Position numbers and translations under genes: made by a program. Positions 19,899 to 26,329 of a DNA stretch of 49,275 nt are shown here, piece after piece (position 1 is the first letter of the stretch; each line of letters opens with the position of its first letter). The stretch spans positions 1 through 49,275 of the forward strand of contig JALXBF010000122.1 of NCBI GenBank assembly GCA_026991575.1, read 5' to 3'. The notes below the pieces were generated by a model. That model saw only the letters and a list, made by a program, of their open reading frames with translations, was not told the DNA's origin and searched no databases. The DNA is from Planctomycetota bacterium (lineage in GTDB: Bacteria; Planctomycetota; Planctomycetia; JALXBF01).

Positions 19899-19927
19899 GC
19901 AGCACCCGATTCCGGGTGCTGCTTTCT
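19899..19927 (+). terminator. intrinsic terminator after the isomerase-like gene
   Basis: GCAGCACCCG (19899-19908), loop ATTC, then CGGGTGCTGC (19913-19922) followed by TTTCT: a perfect 10-bp stem 36 bases after the stop codon. Confidence 0.85.
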
Positions 19928-20167
19928 TGTGCCCGGGCGTACCCAGGCAGGGGTGTCGCAGCGAGCATTCGACCGAGCGGCATACGCACGGGCTGGATCG
20001 CCTTTCTTGCGCGTCCGGCGCGCCAAGCGGCCTGCTCGGATTCGGGCACGAACAGCCGGCCTGACTTAAGACGGGGATCGCTGCGCGCCGAAGCAACGAG
20101 TAAGCACTCGGCATCTGGGGGCATCCTCTCCGCTCGCGGGGCGCTGCACGAACGAGCAAAGCCGGGG

Positions 20168-20194
20168 TTGACAGGCGAGACCGACTACTATAGT
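20168..20194 (+). promoter_or_regulatory. possible promoter for the LEPR-XLL protein
   Basis: TTGACA (20168-20173) and TATAGT (20189-20194) are good boxes, but the spacer is 15 bases, shorter than usual. It lies about 100 bases before the start codon. Together with the terminator at 19899 it covers most of the 430-base gap; nothing else is seen there. Confidence 0.45.
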
Positions 20195-20293
20195 CTTAGT
20201 ACGAACAACATCAAAGGTCGGCGTCGCTCCTCGGGTGTGTGCCCGCGGAGGTGGTTTGGCGACGGCTGGAGCTTCTTCGTGTGGAGGTACGCG

Positions 20294-21286
20294 ATGAGCC
20301 GAGTGCGAGAAGCGAAACGGCACACTCAACTGGCGGTTGACCGCCTGGAGCAGCGAGAGCTGCTTTCGGCCAACGTCGTCAACGGAACCCTGTACGTGGA
20401 AGCAGGCGACCTGGATGACGTGGTGCGCATTGACCTGCGCAACAGCTCTCTGATCGTGCGTGAAAACCACGAGCTTTACCGCTTCGACGCATCGAACGTG
20501 AACCGCATCGTCGTGCTGACCAAGGCCGGGCATGACCGGGTCACGATTGACCCGGACATCACACTGCCGGTTGTTGTGCGTGCCGGTTCGGGCGACGATA
20601 TCATCCGGGGCGGCAGCGGAAACGACCGGATCTATGGTGGCAGCGGCAACGATCGTCTCTACGGCCGCGACGGAGACGATCGCCTGTATGGTCAACGTGG
20701 TGATGACCGGCTGTTCGGCCAGGACGGCGACGACTACCTCTTCGGCCATCGGGGCCACGATGAGCTGCGCGGTGGCCGGGGTTATGACCGGCTCCGGGGC
20801 GGCCGTGACGCAGACGACTACTACGGCCACTGGGATGACGATGTACCGGGGCACGAGCTCCGCGAGTACGAGCACCACTACCGCTACGAACACCGACACC
20901 GCGATGACTCCCCTCGGGATGACTCAGGGCACTGGTCCGACAGCAGGTATGAGTATGAGGTCGAGTACAAGGCGTACCTGACTGGATCCGGTGGCCGGCA
21001 CGCAAAGGTTGAGTATGAGGTTGAGAACGAGCATGGGATGACCAAGACCGAGTTTGAGGTGAAGGTGTGGGGGGCGACGCCCGGTGAGGTGCTGGACGTC
21101 TACGTTGACGGCCAACTCGTTGGCCAGGTGCTCATCGGTCCGTACGGCACCGGCAAGCTGAAGTACACGACCTATCCGCACAAGCCTGGCCACAGGCCGT
21201 TCCCGGACAACTTCCCCACGATCACGGACGGCACCAGTGTTGCCGTGGGTGATATGAACGGCACACTGCGTGTGTGGTATTCGTAA
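20294..21286 (+). CDS. LEPR-XLL motif protein with RTX-type calcium-binding repeats
   Basis: The 330-residue product starts at an ATG with GGAGG 7 bases upstream. Residues 17-27 (RLEQRELLSAN) are the planctomycete LEPR-XLL N-terminal motif found on surface or exported proteins. Residues about 98-178 hold eight nonapeptide repeats of the GGxGxDxLx type (GGSGNDRIY, GGSGNDRLY, GRDGDDRLY and so on), the calcium-binding beta-roll of RTX proteins; the last two drift from consensus. A very acidic and histidine-rich stretch follows (YEHHYRYEHRHRDD). The C-terminal 120 residues form a strand-rich domain (VEYEVENEHGMTKTEFEVKV; VLDVYVDGQLVGQV). It is probably a surface or matrix protein stabilised by calcium; adhesion is inference. 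Confidence 0.85.
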   Translation: MSRVREAKRHTQLAVDRLEQRELLSANVVNGTLYVEAGDLDDVVRIDLRNSSLIVRENHELYRFDASNVNRIVVLTKAGHDRVTIDPDITLPVVVRAGSGDDIIRGGSGNDRIYGGSGNDRLYGRDGDDRLYGQRGDDRLFGQDGDDYLFGHRGHDELRGGRGYDRLRGGRDADDYYGHWDDDVPGHELREYEHHYRYEHRHRDDSPRDDSGHWSDSRYEYEVEYKAYLTGSGGRHAKVEYEVENEHGMTKTEFEVKVWGATPGEVLDVYVDGQLVGQVLIGPYGTGKLKYTTYPHKPGHRPFPDNFPTITDGTSVAVGDMNGTLRVWYS

Positions 21287-21327: not shown

Positions 21328-21360
21328 GAGCCGCCCCGTCAGCTGTCGGGGCGGCTCTTT
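21328..21360 (+). terminator. intrinsic terminator after the LEPR-XLL gene
   Basis: GAGCCGCCCC (21328-21337) pairs with GGGGCGGCTC (21348-21357) and is followed by TTT. It lies between two convergent transcription units; the T run supports the plus strand only. Confidence 0.75.
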
Positions 21361-21389: not shown

Positions 21390-21641
21390 TCAGCCGGAGA
21401 ACTCAGGCTCATAGCCGGCAGCGCGGATGCGCTCCAGCAGATCCTCGATCGCAAGGTCCGCTCGCACGTGCACACGCACGGTCTTGCTCCGCGCGTCGGC
21501 CTGGACGTGAAGAACGCCGCCGAGTTGTTGCAACGAGTAGCTGATCAGACGTTCGCACGCCTGACAGGCCATATCGGGCACACGAAGCGTGACCTCACGA
21601 CCTGCCCGCCCGTGTTGCTCGCCCATCGCCCGGCCTCTCAC
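21390..21641 (-). CDS. HMA-domain metal-binding protein
   Basis: The 83-residue product fits the heavy-metal-associated fold of about 70 residues (beta-alpha-beta-beta-alpha-beta). VPDMACQACERLISYSL carries a CxxC loop corresponding to GMTCxxC of copper chaperones and MerP, and AAGYEPE is the usual end. No signal peptide is evident, so it probably acts in the cytoplasm. The start is a GTG whose last two bases overlap the TGA of the upstream gene (GTGA); a later ATG six codons in is an alternative. It is the last gene of the MerR-controlled operon. Cu(I), Ag(I) or Hg(II) are the likely ligands; the sequence does not distinguish them. Confidence 0.85.
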   Translation of the reverse strand: MRGRAMGEQHGRAGREVTLRVPDMACQACERLISYSLQQLGGVLHVQADARSKTVRVHVRADLAIEDLLERIRAAGYEPEFSG

Positions 21642-22582
21642 TGCCCGTACGCCAGTCGCACGGTCCCGGAGTACTTGTCGATGATCAACCAGTTCACGCG
21701 GGAACCGTCTTTGGTTACGACCTCGACCTCAAACGTGCCGATGGTCTCGCGCACCTGACCGATCGTGAGGTTCGGGTTAGCCAGACGGCGCAGGTACGCT
21801 TCCGCCCGCTGTCGCGCCTGCTCGACAGTGCGGGGATTAACCTGAACCTGCGGTTGGCCGTCGCCGCCGACAGAAGACTCCATCTTGCCCCCGCCCATGC
21901 CCGTACCGATGGTGCCCGCCATCATCATGCGCATGCACGGGCACATCATCATCTGGTTAGCTCCTCCCCCCATCCCAGCCATGGCTCCAGCCATCATCCC
22001 GACGGCACCGGCCATGCTGGTCCCTGTCGAGCCTACTAGGCCGCTTCCCATGCCCGCAGCAGCACCGGCAAAACCGGTCACGTTACCCATCCGATCCGAT
22101 GCGATACTGGCAGCTTCCGACCGATACTGCAGCGGTTCCCCTTCGTACGGTGCGCCCAGCTCGACCCAGCGCCGCACGGCCGCCAGCACCTCCGGCCGTA
22201 CCATCGGCCCCCCCTTCGGCATCTCGCCCGCCTCGATTAGCTGAACCAGTAGGCTCTCATCCGGCTTCCCTGGCACGATCGCTTCGCCCGTGTCGCCGCC
22301 GCGCAGTGCTGCCGCGCGCCGGCTCAAATCCAGCCCCCCTTCTCTTCGGTCCGCGTTGTGGCACTTCAAACAGCTTCGCACCAGCAGAGGCCGGACGACC
22401 TGGCGGAACAGCACCAGCGCCTGCTGCTCATCGGACGTGCCGGCCATCTCACCCGGTTGCTCTGCCCCTCCGCCAACGGCCATCGGCGTCCGAGCCGCCT
22501 GGGGCACCAGGCTTGTGTACGCTACTACGAACAGGCCCATCAGGACGGAAACCAGGCCGCTCACGGCCAGATTGCGCATCAT
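21638..22582 (-). CDS. Met-rich envelope protein with planctomycete cytochrome c domain and PepSY-like tail
   Basis: The ATG at 22582 overlaps the upstream stop codon (ATGA) and gives 314 residues; the frame is open further upstream, but only inside the previous gene. A membrane segment or signal covers 7-27. Residues about 52-148 are a planctomycete-type cytochrome c domain: CLKCH at 71-75, then GGLDLSRRAAALRGG and IVPGKPDESLLVQLI. Residues 165-233 are extremely rich in Met, Gly and Ala with a central MMMCPCMRMMM (211-221), resembling Met-rich copper or silver sites of periplasmic metal-handling proteins. Residues 250-314 look PepSY-like (VEQARQRAEAYLRRL; NWLIIDKYSGTVRLAY). I know no named family with this order. 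A role in envelope coinage-metal binding or redox is inference. Confidence 0.75.
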   Translation of the reverse strand: MMRNLAVSGLVSVLMGLFVVAYTSLVPQAARTPMAVGGGAEQPGEMAGTSDEQQALVLFRQVVRPLLVRSCLKCHNADRREGGLDLSRRAAALRGGDTGEAIVPGKPDESLLVQLIEAGEMPKGGPMVRPEVLAAVRRWVELGAPYEGEPLQYRSEAASIASDRMGNVTGFAGAAAGMGSGLVGSTGTSMAGAVGMMAGAMAGMGGGANQMMMCPCMRMMMAGTIGTGMGGGKMESSVGGDGQPQVQVNPRTVEQARQRAEAYLRRLANPNLTIGQVRETIGTFEVEVVTKDGSRVNWLIIDKYSGTVRLAYGQ

Positions 22583-24042
22583 CGCTCGTCGCTCCACCCG
22601 GCGGTCTTCCCCGCAGAAGCCAGCTCGAGCCGGTCGGTCCGGACCGGTGGGGCTGACAGGTCCAAGCACATGATCTCCTGCTCGTCCCGCACGAACAGAC
22701 GACCGGCTACCAGCGTTGGCGGCGTCCACGTTCTGTGGCGGCATAGTCGCGTGCGGGCCAGCTCGCGATAACCGTCCGGCGTGGCGGCCAGCAGCGCCAG
22801 TTTGCCGTACTCGCCCAGTACGATGAGCTTGTCGTTGCAAGCAATCAACGATCCTTTACGGAACCCACCCCGGTGCCATCGTACCCGGCCCGTCGCGAGT
22901 TCCATGCACGTCAGCCGCGTCTCGTCGAACCCGTACAGGTATTCCCCCACCAGCACCGGCGTGCTGAAGTGGTTGCGCATCGCCGTGGACCGATAGACCA
23001 CCTCGGCACCCGCGCCGCCGCCTGGCAGCGCCACGACGCGCAGCAACGCACAGCCGCGCCCGTAGCCGGTCGAAATGAACACATACGGGTCCGAAACGAT
23101 CGGCGTCGCAATGTTGCAGTCCATGGACGTCGTCCATGGGAACCGCCAGTACAGCCGACCGGTTTGCGGTTCGACGCTTACCAACGCCTCGGCCGTGAAG
23201 AACAACACCTGCGGCTGTCCGGCCAGCGTCGCATACACCGGTGACGCATAGCCGGGCCGATCATCCAAGCTCTGCCAGCGCACCGCGCCGCTGTGTCGAT
23301 CCAGCGCTGCAACCGACCGGCCGCCCGCCCCCCCAGGCATCACGAATACCAAATCTCCAACGACCAGTGGAGAAAACGACACCCCCCAATCCGGTATCCG
23401 ACCGCCGAGCTCCCCGATCAGATCGCGCCGCCAGATCGGCCTTCCAGTACGAGCATCCAGGCAGTGCATCAACCCGGTGGCCCCCACGGCGTAGACCAGG
23501 CCATCGTACACGGCCGGAGTCGACCGTGGCCCGGATCCCTGGTCGCTGACAAACGACGCCCGATAGCGGTACCGCCAGCGCTCTTCTCCTGTGGCGGCAT
23601 CCAGACAGACCACCGCCTCGTCCGGCCCATCCTGCATCATCGTGTACAACAGCCCGTCCACCACCACGATGCCCGAATAGCCCGGGCCGGTAGTCGATTG
23701 GCGCCACAGCACTGGCGGCCCGCCTTCGGGCCAGCGCGTAGCCAGCCGCTGCGGTGGTGCCATGCCATCGCGTCGTGGCCCTCGCCATTGAGGCCACCCG
23801 GTCAACGCCGCATCCGTGTCCCGGCCGGCCGGAGCTTCGCGCCCCCGGGTCGCCGGCTCGGAATCAACCGTCTGGCTGCCAGTCCGCCAGCGCCCTGCGA
23901 AGGCCACGGCTGCGACAACGACAGCCGCCGCGACCACCAGCCCGATGGCCCAGGCGACGGCTGGATACGTTGCACCACTTGAGCGGTTTCTCGTGCCCGC
24001 TGCCGAGGTACTCATCGACAACGCCGTTCTTGCAGCCCCCAT
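22579..24042 (-). CDS. membrane-anchored PQQ-like beta-propeller protein
   Basis: The 487-residue product has one N-terminal membrane helix (about 25-50) and a periplasmic propeller. WPQWRGPRRDGMAPP is the entry motif of planctomycete PQQ-like propellers. Repeats follow with GxxYxxD..TG...W closures (VVCLDAATGEERWRYRY; MHCLDARTGRPIWRRDL; LVSVEPQTGRLYWRFPW; LTCMELATGRVRWHRGG). The catalytic features of PQQ alcohol dehydrogenases are not evident, so it may be a scaffold rather than an enzyme. It lies 30 bases after the OB-fold lipoprotein gene and overlaps the next gene by 4 bases, so it belongs firmly to the MerR-controlled operon. Two or more ATG codons near the start leave a 9-residue uncertainty. 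Confidence 0.85.
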   Translation of the reverse strand: MGAARTALSMSTSAAGTRNRSSGATYPAVAWAIGLVVAAAVVVAAVAFAGRWRTGSQTVDSEPATRGREAPAGRDTDAALTGWPQWRGPRRDGMAPPQRLATRWPEGGPPVLWRQSTTGPGYSGIVVVDGLLYTMMQDGPDEAVVCLDAATGEERWRYRYRASFVSDQGSGPRSTPAVYDGLVYAVGATGLMHCLDARTGRPIWRRDLIGELGGRIPDWGVSFSPLVVGDLVFVMPGGAGGRSVAALDRHSGAVRWQSLDDRPGYASPVYATLAGQPQVLFFTAEALVSVEPQTGRLYWRFPWTTSMDCNIATPIVSDPYVFISTGYGRGCALLRVVALPGGGAGAEVVYRSTAMRNHFSTPVLVGEYLYGFDETRLTCMELATGRVRWHRGGFRKGSLIACNDKLIVLGEYGKLALLAATPDGYRELARTRLCRHRTWTPPTLVAGRLFVRDEQEIMCLDLSAPPVRTDRLELASAGKTAGWSDER

Positions 24043-24072
24043 CTTGCCCGGCAGAAGACCTTCCGCCGGTAG

Positions 24073-24507
24073 CTATTCTGCTTGCTGACCGTCCGACTGA
24101 GTGTTGCCGACACGGAACTCGACGTAACTGGCTTCGATTCGGTACTCGGCCCCTGCCCGCACCAACTTTCCAGCCACGCGCACCCTCGACCCTACCCGCT
24201 TCTGCCTCACGTGCCACCCGGCCGGGTTCAGGTCCACCAGCACCTTCCCGCTGCCATCGTCCACCTGGAACCAGCATCCCACCGACGGGCACTGTTGCAC
24301 GACGGTGCCCTCCACGACGATCTGTTGCCCGAGCAGCTCATCGCTGAACGCTCGCACGGCAACCGTCTGGACCGCAGCCTGCGGGGGACTGCCCAGTACG
24401 GTGGCCTCGACCGCTTCCCCGGACGGCTGCCCGCAACCGGGACAGGCCAGGACGCTCAGGATTGATATCGTGATCGCAGGCAGCAGCTTCTGATCCGGTC
24501 CAACCAT
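24073..24507 (-). CDS. putative OB-fold lipoprotein
   Basis: The ATG at 24507 lies 2 bases after the MerR stop codon and gives 144 residues; longer starts lie inside merR. The signal ends in SVLAC, an acceptable lipobox with C22 as the lipid site, followed by PGC. Residues about 60-135 read as an OB-fold: GQQIVVEGTVVQQC, VGCWFQVDDGSGKVLVDL, RVRVAGKLVRAGAEYRIEAS. The CPSVGCW loop (C73, C78) recalls the paired cysteines of DUF4920-like periplasmic OB proteins and may bind metal or form a disulfide. It probably sits in the periplasm and works with the PQQ and Met-rich proteins encoded downstream; the function is unknown. Confidence 0.7.
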   Translation of the reverse strand: MVGPDQKLLPAITISILSVLACPGCGQPSGEAVEATVLGSPPQAAVQTVAVRAFSDELLGQQIVVEGTVVQQCPSVGCWFQVDDGSGKVLVDLNPAGWHVRQKRVGSRVRVAGKLVRAGAEYRIEASYVEFRVGNTQSDGQQAE

Positions 24508-24509
24508 CG

Positions 24510-24935
24510 TCACTTCCGCCTGGAACGCTTCGCCAACGTGGGATCGCCGTTGAGCGATTGAATGATGGGACAAGCGGCAGATCGCTTCGTGCGGCAGGCA
24601 CACAACAATTCGTTCAACGCCTGCTGCATGGCCCGCAAGTCACGGATCTTCCGGTCGATCTCCTCTAGCTTCTGCTTGACCAGCCGTCGAACCGCTGGAG
24701 CCGCGGCCTGTGGCGCGTCGCGCAGCGCCAGTAGCTCGCGGATCTCGCGTAACGAGAACCCAAGTTCCTGGGCACGCTTCACGAACCGCACCAGGTCCAC
24801 CGTCTCGGGCGGATACTCGCGGTAGCCGGATGGACGCCGCGGCGGCGGTGGTAGGATTCCCACGCGCTCGTAGAACCGAAGCGTCTCGACGTTCACGCCA
24901 GCCTGCCGGGCGACCTCACCGCTACGCAAACCCAT
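24510..24935 (-). CDS. MerR-family metal-responsive regulator, CueR/MerR-like
   Basis: The 141-residue product starts with the family DNA-binding domain (GEVARQAGVNVETLRFYERV; GYREYPPETVDLVRFVKRAQ), then a dimerisation coiled coil (about 80-112) and a metal-binding loop: C112, C114 and C122 in LCACRTKRSAACPIIQSL. Seven residues separate C114 and C122, as in CueR (C112/C120), while mercury MerR has eight. The Cys in the 77-82 region that MerR needs for Hg(II), and the Ser found in CueR, are both absent (DAPQAAAPA). This suggests sensing of a monovalent ion such as Cu(I) or Ag(I), but the end of the protein is also similar to MerR (ELLCAC), so Hg(II) remains possible. It is the first gene of the operon and would autoregulate from the promoter at 24969. 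Confidence 0.9.
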   Translation of the reverse strand: MGLRSGEVARQAGVNVETLRFYERVGILPPPPRRPSGYREYPPETVDLVRFVKRAQELGFSLREIRELLALRDAPQAAAPAVRRLVKQKLEEIDRKIRDLRAMQQALNELLCACRTKRSAACPIIQSLNGDPTLAKRSRRK

Positions 24936-24968
24936 AGGCCATCACCTCAGCACCGTGCAGTCCGCTAA

Positions 24969-25000
24969 AGCATAGAGTCCGTACCATGGTACGGAGTCAA
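24969..25000 (-). promoter_or_regulatory. MerR-type promoter with palindromic operator
   Basis: On the minus strand, TTGACT (25000-24995) and TATGCT (24974-24969) are separated by 20 bases, the over-long spacing diagnostic of MerR-activated promoters. The spacer contains the perfect 16-bp palindrome CCGTACCATGGTACGG (24979-24994). From memory, the mercury-resistance operator has the form TTGACTCCGTACxxxxGTACGGA, and this site matches that pattern. The merR start codon lies 34 bases downstream, so one promoter serves the regulator and the four genes after it. Confidence 0.85.
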
Positions 25001-25090: not shown

Positions 25091-26329
25091 CTAGTGGGTT
25101 CGCAGGCGGGTTGGTCGGCCGGCTAGCGTGTTGAAGAAGTCGCGTTTCATTGCGTCTTCGTCGATGTCCAGGATTAGCCGCAGCGGTGCGGAGCGGTTGG
25201 CGGCGCGTTTCCAGCGGTATTTCTCGTCTGGACCACCTAGCTCTGCTGGCTCGACCCGCACGAGCCACGGGAGGCGGCGGGCAAGGGCAATCACGGTCGC
25301 CACGGCAGTCACGTCGTACAGCGACTTTGCGCGCTCCCGGCGTAGCACGATCGGATGAACCAGACCGCGCAGGTAGCGACCCAGTGGGTTGTCCGGATAC
25401 AGGTCTTGCTCGTGCCGCGTGTCTACGGTCAAGCTGGCTCCCGGTGGCCGTTCAAGGATCACCCACCAGGGTAGCCGACTGCGCGCGACCACGTGCACGG
25501 CCCAAGGATCGTTGCGGCCGTTGAACGAGTCGATGTGCGCGTGTTCGGGGCCGCCCCCCAGCCAGCAGATCTGGAGCCGCCCGTGCACCTCAAGTCCTTC
25601 GCGACGAGCCTGCAGGATGGCACTGGCCACGTTCGTGCACGGCCCGACCGGAATGACCCAGACAGGATCGCCGGGAACCGACCCGCGTGCCGCTGCCAGG
25701 ATCGCTTCGCTGGCCTCCGAAACCCTGGGCACGGTATCTTGCCATCGCTGGCTCGGTGGAACAACCAATCGGTAAGGCGAGCCGCGAAAAACGGGCGGGA
25801 TGCGACCGACATCCAGCCCGCTACAGCGAGCGAGATCGAGCATGTGAACGATTTCTGCGTAGTTCATCGCCTCCTGCCACGCTTCATTGGCCCGACCGCC
25901 GTGATGGGCGCTGTTGATTGCCAGAACGTCCAGCTCACTGAAGAGGGCGTAGGCAAGGTAGTGCTGGTCGTCCACTTCGTTCTTTGCATCCGTGTCCAGA
26001 ATCACGCGTGGCACAGGCCGCTCGCCCGGCCTGTACACGCGCAGCAGCATAGTACAAACGTGCCCATCAGCCCCGGTGATCAGCCGCACGTGGTAGCGTC
26101 CCGGTTGGCGAAACGTGTGCCGGACGACCGGACCGCTCGCCTCGGCACCGTCGCCGAAGGACCACCGTAGGCGCAGGGTATCATGGCGTCCGGTCGGCAC
26201 GATCGCTCGGAATTCGACCGGCCGCCCACAGACGGCTCGTTCGTTCAGCGGCTTAATGTGAACGGTGGACTCGGAGGGAAGTAAACCTAGGCCTCCTGTG
26301 AGTAACGCCACAGCAGCAAACGGCAGCAT
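25091..26329 (-). CDS. secreted PKD-domain nucleoside hydrolase-like protein
   Basis: The 412-residue product starts at an ATG with GAGGTGAG upstream and has a Sec signal (LPFAAVALLTGGLGLL). Residues about 25-105 form a PKD-like Ig fold (LRWSFGDGAEASGPVVRHTF). From about 110 it resembles inosine/uridine-preferring nucleoside hydrolases: RVILDTDAKNEVDDQHYLA is the N-terminal Asp cluster (usually DTDxGxDD), and WVIPVGPCTNVASAI is the family's GPLTN-like motif. The cluster is changed from DTDPGIDD, so activity on nucleosides is uncertain; PF07632-like cellulose-binding relatives are an alternative. It is likely periplasmic. Transcribed on its own, it lies just upstream of the MerR promoter. Confidence 0.75.
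   Translation of the reverse strand: MLPFAAVALLTGGLGLLPSESTVHIKPLNERAVCGRPVEFRAIVPTGRHDTLRLRWSFGDGAEASGPVVRHTFRQPGRYHVRLITGADGHVCTMLLRVYRPGERPVPRVILDTDAKNEVDDQHYLAYALFSELDVLAINSAHHGGRANEAWQEAMNYAEIVHMLDLARCSGLDVGRIPPVFRGSPYRLVVPPSQRWQDTVPRVSEASEAILAAARGSVPGDPVWVIPVGPCTNVASAILQARREGLEVHGRLQICWLGGGPEHAHIDSFNGRNDPWAVHVVARSRLPWWVILERPPGASLTVDTRHEQDLYPDNPLGRYLRGLVHPIVLRRERAKSLYDVTAVATVIALARRLPWLVRVEPAELGGPDEKYRWKRAANRSAPLRLILDIDEDAMKRDFFNTLAGRPTRLRTH

Follow-up and report, generated by a model that had tools for sequence, protein, structure and literature searches.

The window (the whole 49,275-nucleotide stretch of planctomycete DNA that was analysed) contains five packed minus-strand genes behind a MerR-type promoter, with a strong hairpin 3' of the last gene:

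24969..25000, minus strand: MerR-type promoter/operator, defined by its sequence and by the same element before homologous genes in relatives
24510..24935, minus strand: gene for a CueR/MerR-type regulator (141 aa; Pfam MerR, 5.6e-21)
24073..24507, minus strand: gene for an OB-fold lipoprotein (144 aa; from an alignment of 8 homologues, a structure model and a fold match)
22579..24042, minus strand: gene for a BamB-like (PQQ_2) propeller (487 aa, membrane-anchored; Pfam PQQ_2/BamB, 2.5e-35)
21638..22582, minus strand: gene for a protein with a PSCyt1 haem c domain, a Met-rich stretch and a PepSY-like domain (314 aa, membrane-anchored; Pfam PSCyt1, 1.2e-14), below called the cytochrome
21390..21641, minus strand: gene for an HMA domain protein (Pfam HMA, 4.4e-12; start at GTG 21641 or ATG 21626)
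21329..21358, minus strand: strong hairpin with an 11-bp stem, 3' of the HMA gene (folding z −3.8)

The original prediction had described five packed genes read from a single MerR-type promoter, and we confirmed the place and strand of all five open reading frames as well as the promoter, TTGACT and TATGCT boxes 20 bases apart. The regulator and OB genes are separated by 2 bases and the OB and propeller genes by 30 bases, while the propeller/cytochrome and cytochrome/HMA pairs each overlap by 4 bases. The spacer between the −35 and −10 boxes holds a perfect dyad, CCGTACCATGGTACGG. The operon region showed no promoter of the ordinary type, with boxes 16-18 bases apart. The hairpin, which has no T run, is possibly a transcript end common to the operon and to a convergent plus-strand gene (window 19916-21286), whose product is an RTX protein with calcium-binding repeats and a high content of His, Asp and Arg. 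Upstream of the operon, on the minus strand, lies a gene whose product joins a PKD domain to one resembling inosine-uridine nucleoside hydrolases (window 25091-26329).

Searching the 4.96 Mb genome with a joint operator pattern, at up to 3 mismatches, retrieved 2 sites, one in the window and one on another contig (C34), and none in the reversed control; a looser pattern added only four single-mismatch sites, with two in its reversed control. The second site, TTGACCCCGTACCAAGGTACAGGCTCTAACCTTTAGCGG (window counterpart: TTGACTCCGTACCATGGTACGGACTCTATGCTTTAGCGG), lies just upstream of an operon encoding a DsbD_TM-type membrane protein with a single CPC and a P1B ATPase with a YPC motif (G000:C34:16584-20119; L117:8585-12120). 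The operator core, CCGTAC-N4-GTACGG, resembles that of mer operators. The genome is 98% complete, and a search of it found no second regulator of this kind. In a related Planctomycetaceae MAG (L032), a close relative of the window regulator heads a single run of MerR, OB, DsbD_TM, P1B ATPase, propeller, cytochrome and HMA genes, and the adjacent C34 DsbD_TM and ATPase proteins are 64% and 69% identical to their orthologues there. The near-identical operators, the single regulator and the one-run arrangement in L032 together indicate that the window and C34 operons form one regulon, with predicted binding of both operators by the window regulator. An assembly artefact was rejected as the cause of the split, since each operon has its own operator and different flanks. 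The claim that an ATPase is lacking is thus true of the 3.6-kb stretch but not of the regulon.

The nearest PDB matches of the C34 ATPase are Cu+ ATPases, and it shares with CopA-type P1B-1 ATPases the HMA domains, the P1B architecture and the M and S of the last helix. It departs from the CopA motif set by having YPC for CPC, F-N for YN, and MxxS(V) for MxxSS, which leaves one of the two Ser. The CPC and YN residues have a documented copper-binding role in the Cu+ ATPase CopA (PMC9433437). Ten distinct ATPases from cassettes of this type were compared: YPC was present in every one, F-N replaced YN wherever the later helices were readable, and a DsbD_TM protein adjoined each of the ten, the only Cys pair common to these partners being a single CPC. 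Since the ATPases were gathered mostly through one regulator, this coupling may stem from inheritance and not from function. A canonical CPC CopA, without this operator, is encoded elsewhere in the window genome. A further contig (G000:C49, L119:4924-8166, minus strand) encodes a P-type metal ATPase of 1080 aa (CPCGLILATP) with a fused SPFH/Band_7 domain, followed by a His-rich Band_7 protein.

By its PF02683 match and its size the C34 DsbD_TM protein resembles the CcdA/DsbD transmembrane family. In members of the CcdA type the two Cys are split between two helices, as in the canonical Arthrobacter CcdA, whereas the two Cys of the C34 protein both lie in its only CPC. The Cys of the first helix is lost, making the usual thiol relay unlikely. 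A PDB search with a protein of the DsbD_TM type gave no match, and literature searches on YPC ATPases and on mercury together with CcdA yielded no relevant papers. A Leisingera plasmid likewise carries a YPC ATPase beside a DsbD_TM protein, there with CPxC. The CPxC variant also occurs in mercury loci, as CPFC in DsbD_TM proteins that adjoin MerR near merA (L093:6652-7956, L095:6652-7956, L096:6220-7521).

Turning to the envelope proteins, Pfam matches back the MerR, propeller, haem c and HMA domains that had been proposed for the window operon. The OB lipoprotein gives only sub-threshold matches to the DUF4920/BOF/OB families, but the structure modelled for it is an OB fold (mean pLDDT 79; YgiW, 1nnx, among the structure matches), in line with the original assignment. 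Its homologues share a conserved QCPxxGCW, and in relatives its gene adjoins the DsbD_TM-ATPase pair. The propeller had been called PQQ-like; it is a BamB-like propeller, and none of the PQQ enzyme models scores as high as its cut-off, the PQQ-dependent dehydrogenase model TIGR03075 scoring 36.6 bits against a cut-off of 480. The HMA protein is CopZ-like, with MACQAC and no evident signal peptide.

The cytochrome scores 55 bits against PF07635 (PSCyt1; cut-off 22) and carries the haem motif CLKCH, together with a Met-rich stretch that includes MCPCMRMMM. Because the whole-protein model was poor (pLDDT 46, from two sequences), it was interpreted for the C-terminal domain alone. This domain forms a helix and four strands (pLDDT about 80-88), and its best structure match is the C-terminal domain of YpeB (5boi; probability 0.99, but E 0.11), which gives the proposed PepSY-like tail weak support. 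A weak match of the cytochrome profile to FoxE (E 0.003) was left out of the interpretation. All four Met-rich proteins of this kind retain MCPCM[RQ]MM and the C-terminal domain, and one of them lacks the haem domain with its motif; what stays constant is the metal-binding stretch and not the haem.

The same gene order had been proposed as something to look for in other genomes, and it is present in two: L032 and G675. Together with the operator count of two per genome, this recurrence speaks against an arrangement by chance. A short G675 contig carries the propeller, the cytochrome, a second Met-rich protein and the HMA gene, and another carries MerR, OB, DsbD_TM and ATPase genes. The latter contig agrees in content with that of locus L034, which apparently comes from the G675 genome. 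Its ATPase gene ends near the contig edge, so that one continuous run from MerR to HMA is likely in G675. The window propeller is 53% identical to that of L032 and 59% to that of G675 (53-66% among all propellers). The cytochrome C-terminus, searched against 392 genomes of the phylum, matched the window genome only; a cytochrome profile added only G675 as a strong match among 398 genomes of the class and nothing strong in the family of G675. A search of plasmids with the cytochrome gave haem-domain matches only. The propeller-cytochrome-HMA module is real but rare, occurring in these three genomes.

We then examined which metal the regulator might sense. Its predicted sensor cysteines, C114-x7-C122, correspond to C112/C120 of CueR in an ungapped alignment (1q05). 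By PDB alignments with E. coli CueR and Tn501 MerR (1q05, 5crl), it has Ala79 where MerR has C82 and CueR has S77; two of the three MerR sensor Cys (82, 117, 126) are present and the first is absent, and the length of the loop is that of CueR. In a survey of about 95 homologues this third Cys was missing from the closest relatives and present in most others. Replacing Ser77 by Cys in CueR and GolS opens a response to divalent ions (PMC7911910). Motifs of merA were found near distant homologues only, most of which carry the third Cys, and at no locus of the regulator's close clade. Close relatives of the regulator (64-67%) control DUF326 (Csp) copper-storage-type genes at three loci: in L037 the gene ends the operon and its product matches Csp3 copper storage protein structures, and in L039 and L057 operators of the same kind stand ahead of the DUF326 proteins. 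Such operators also precede MacAB-like ABC genes in L036, L038 and L045 (Pfam was run on the L045 genes only). Near another clade regulator lies a gene for a Cys-rich, apparently exported Csp1-like protein (L142:10689-11189, minus strand), with no Pfam match at 1e-5. The missing third Cys, the lack of merA nearby and the DUF326 proteins in three relatives' loci make Cu(I), or else Ag(I), the most likely metal.

Part of the evidence runs against copper: the YPC/F-N motifs, the separate CPC CopA, the mer-like operator core and the one haem-less Met-rich paralogue. The regulator also scores higher against the NCBIfam MerR equivalog (TIGR02051, 136.4 bits, below its cut-off of 150.85) than against that of CueR (TIGR02044, 120.9 bits, below its cut-off of 147.4), and YPC ATPase or CcdA genes lie near mer on two plasmids, with a similar YPC ATPase near merA/merB and MerR-Trx-CcdA in Paraburkholderia and MerR-Trx-CcdA beside MerT/MerP in Afipia. 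The operator core, the model scores and the plasmid neighbourhoods would fit a regulon for Hg(II) or some other soft divalent metal, in which a mer-type regulator drives export through the YPC ATPase while MerP-like scavenging falls to the envelope proteins. Given that the C82 equivalent, found in most merA-linked homologues, is missing from the window regulator and those closest to it, that no merA motif occurs at close-clade loci, and that the relatives' regulon includes copper-storage-type genes, we consider this reading unlikely.

The window operon is thus probably the envelope half of a split, CueR-type efflux regulon responsive to Cu(I), possibly Ag(I), and the original view of an envelope metal operon that is under MerR control and likely answers to a soft metal is supported. 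Rising cytosolic Cu(I) would bind C114/C122 of the regulator, which would then distort the 20-base spacer and turn on both its own operon and the C34 DsbD_TM-ATPase operon. As a cytosolic chaperone, the HMA protein would pass Cu(I) to the ATPase for export, aided by the CPC-bearing DsbD_TM partner. For the envelope proteins we infer that the OB lipoprotein and the Met/Cys-rich CPCM protein would take up the metal in the periplasm, with the propeller as a scaffold for the CPCM protein. As had been proposed, neither merA nor merT is present in the window operon, and merP is absent from it as well. No match to a multicopper oxidase domain was detected genome-wide. This leaves room for the haem protein as a Cu(I) oxidase, and at a guess such an enzyme may be replaced by the haem c domain, either oxidising or sensing Cu(I).

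The same parts might serve copper supply rather than removal, the ATPase and DsbD_TM protein loading copper for cytochrome oxidase or exported cuproproteins and the envelope operon delivering it. CcoI, a known copper pump for oxidase assembly (PMC8475189), would be a precedent; a non-canonical pump beside a canonical CopA in one genome fits such a role, and the DsbD_TM/CcdA and haem c proteins point to respiratory assembly. The rarity of the set (the OB marker occurs in 7 of 398 genomes of the class) misfits a core assembly function, however, induction by a CueR-type activator fits excess, and the DUF326 storage and MacAB-like ABC genes of related regulons fit defence, making a supply role quite improbable. 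That the pump regulon includes only the regulator and the OB protein, the propeller, cytochrome and HMA genes having been captured behind the promoter with no metal role, would agree with the module's absence from most loci of this regulon and with the ubiquity of PSCyt1 domains in related genomes (all 99 searched had a match, which is uninformative), but is very unlikely in view of the three genes standing in the same order in two further regulon genomes, with an invariant CPCM motif and the HMA gene in the set each time.

As a putative Cu(I) efflux system, the regulon resembles E. coli CueR/copA/cueO in its MerR-family activator with two Cys sites, in the dyad operator within a 19-20-base spacer, and in the control of several separate operons, with a P1B pump and periplasmic proteins, by one regulator. 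It differs in the YPC pump with its DsbD_TM partner, in having no detected CueO, in a periplasmic part made up of the OB lipoprotein, the propeller and the haem c/CPCM/PepSY-like protein, and in the mer-like look of the operator core. With the mer operon (Tn501/Tn21) it shares the regulator family, the operator core and an HMA domain protein, but merA and merT are absent and the regulator has no C82. The propeller and haem c domains belong to the families of BamB and of planctomycete PSCyt1 proteins; here, in contrast, they form a fixed pair in a MerR operon, with a Met-rich CPCM stretch and a PepSY-like tail. CueR-type copper regulons are already known; the envelope set (OB, propeller, haem c/CPCM/PepSY-like and HMA proteins) is unusual and rarely seen. 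It is conceivable, if doubtful, that the system combines two linked novelties: a two-part soft-metal pump, consisting of an ATPase without the first Cys of CPC and a dedicated DsbD_TM protein with a single intramembrane CPC, and a haem c/CPCM/PepSY-like protein that, with a BamB-like propeller, replaces the multicopper oxidase as a periplasmic Cu(I) oxidase or sink.

The open papers that we searched say very little about how planctomycetes defend themselves against copper. Efflux genes that form one run in the relative L032 are divided here between two operons, each with its own operator, and the regulon links an ATPase with altered metal motifs to a membrane partner that holds a CPC. The putative copper regulon would offer a case in which an envelope copper system with no detectable multicopper oxidase can be tested.
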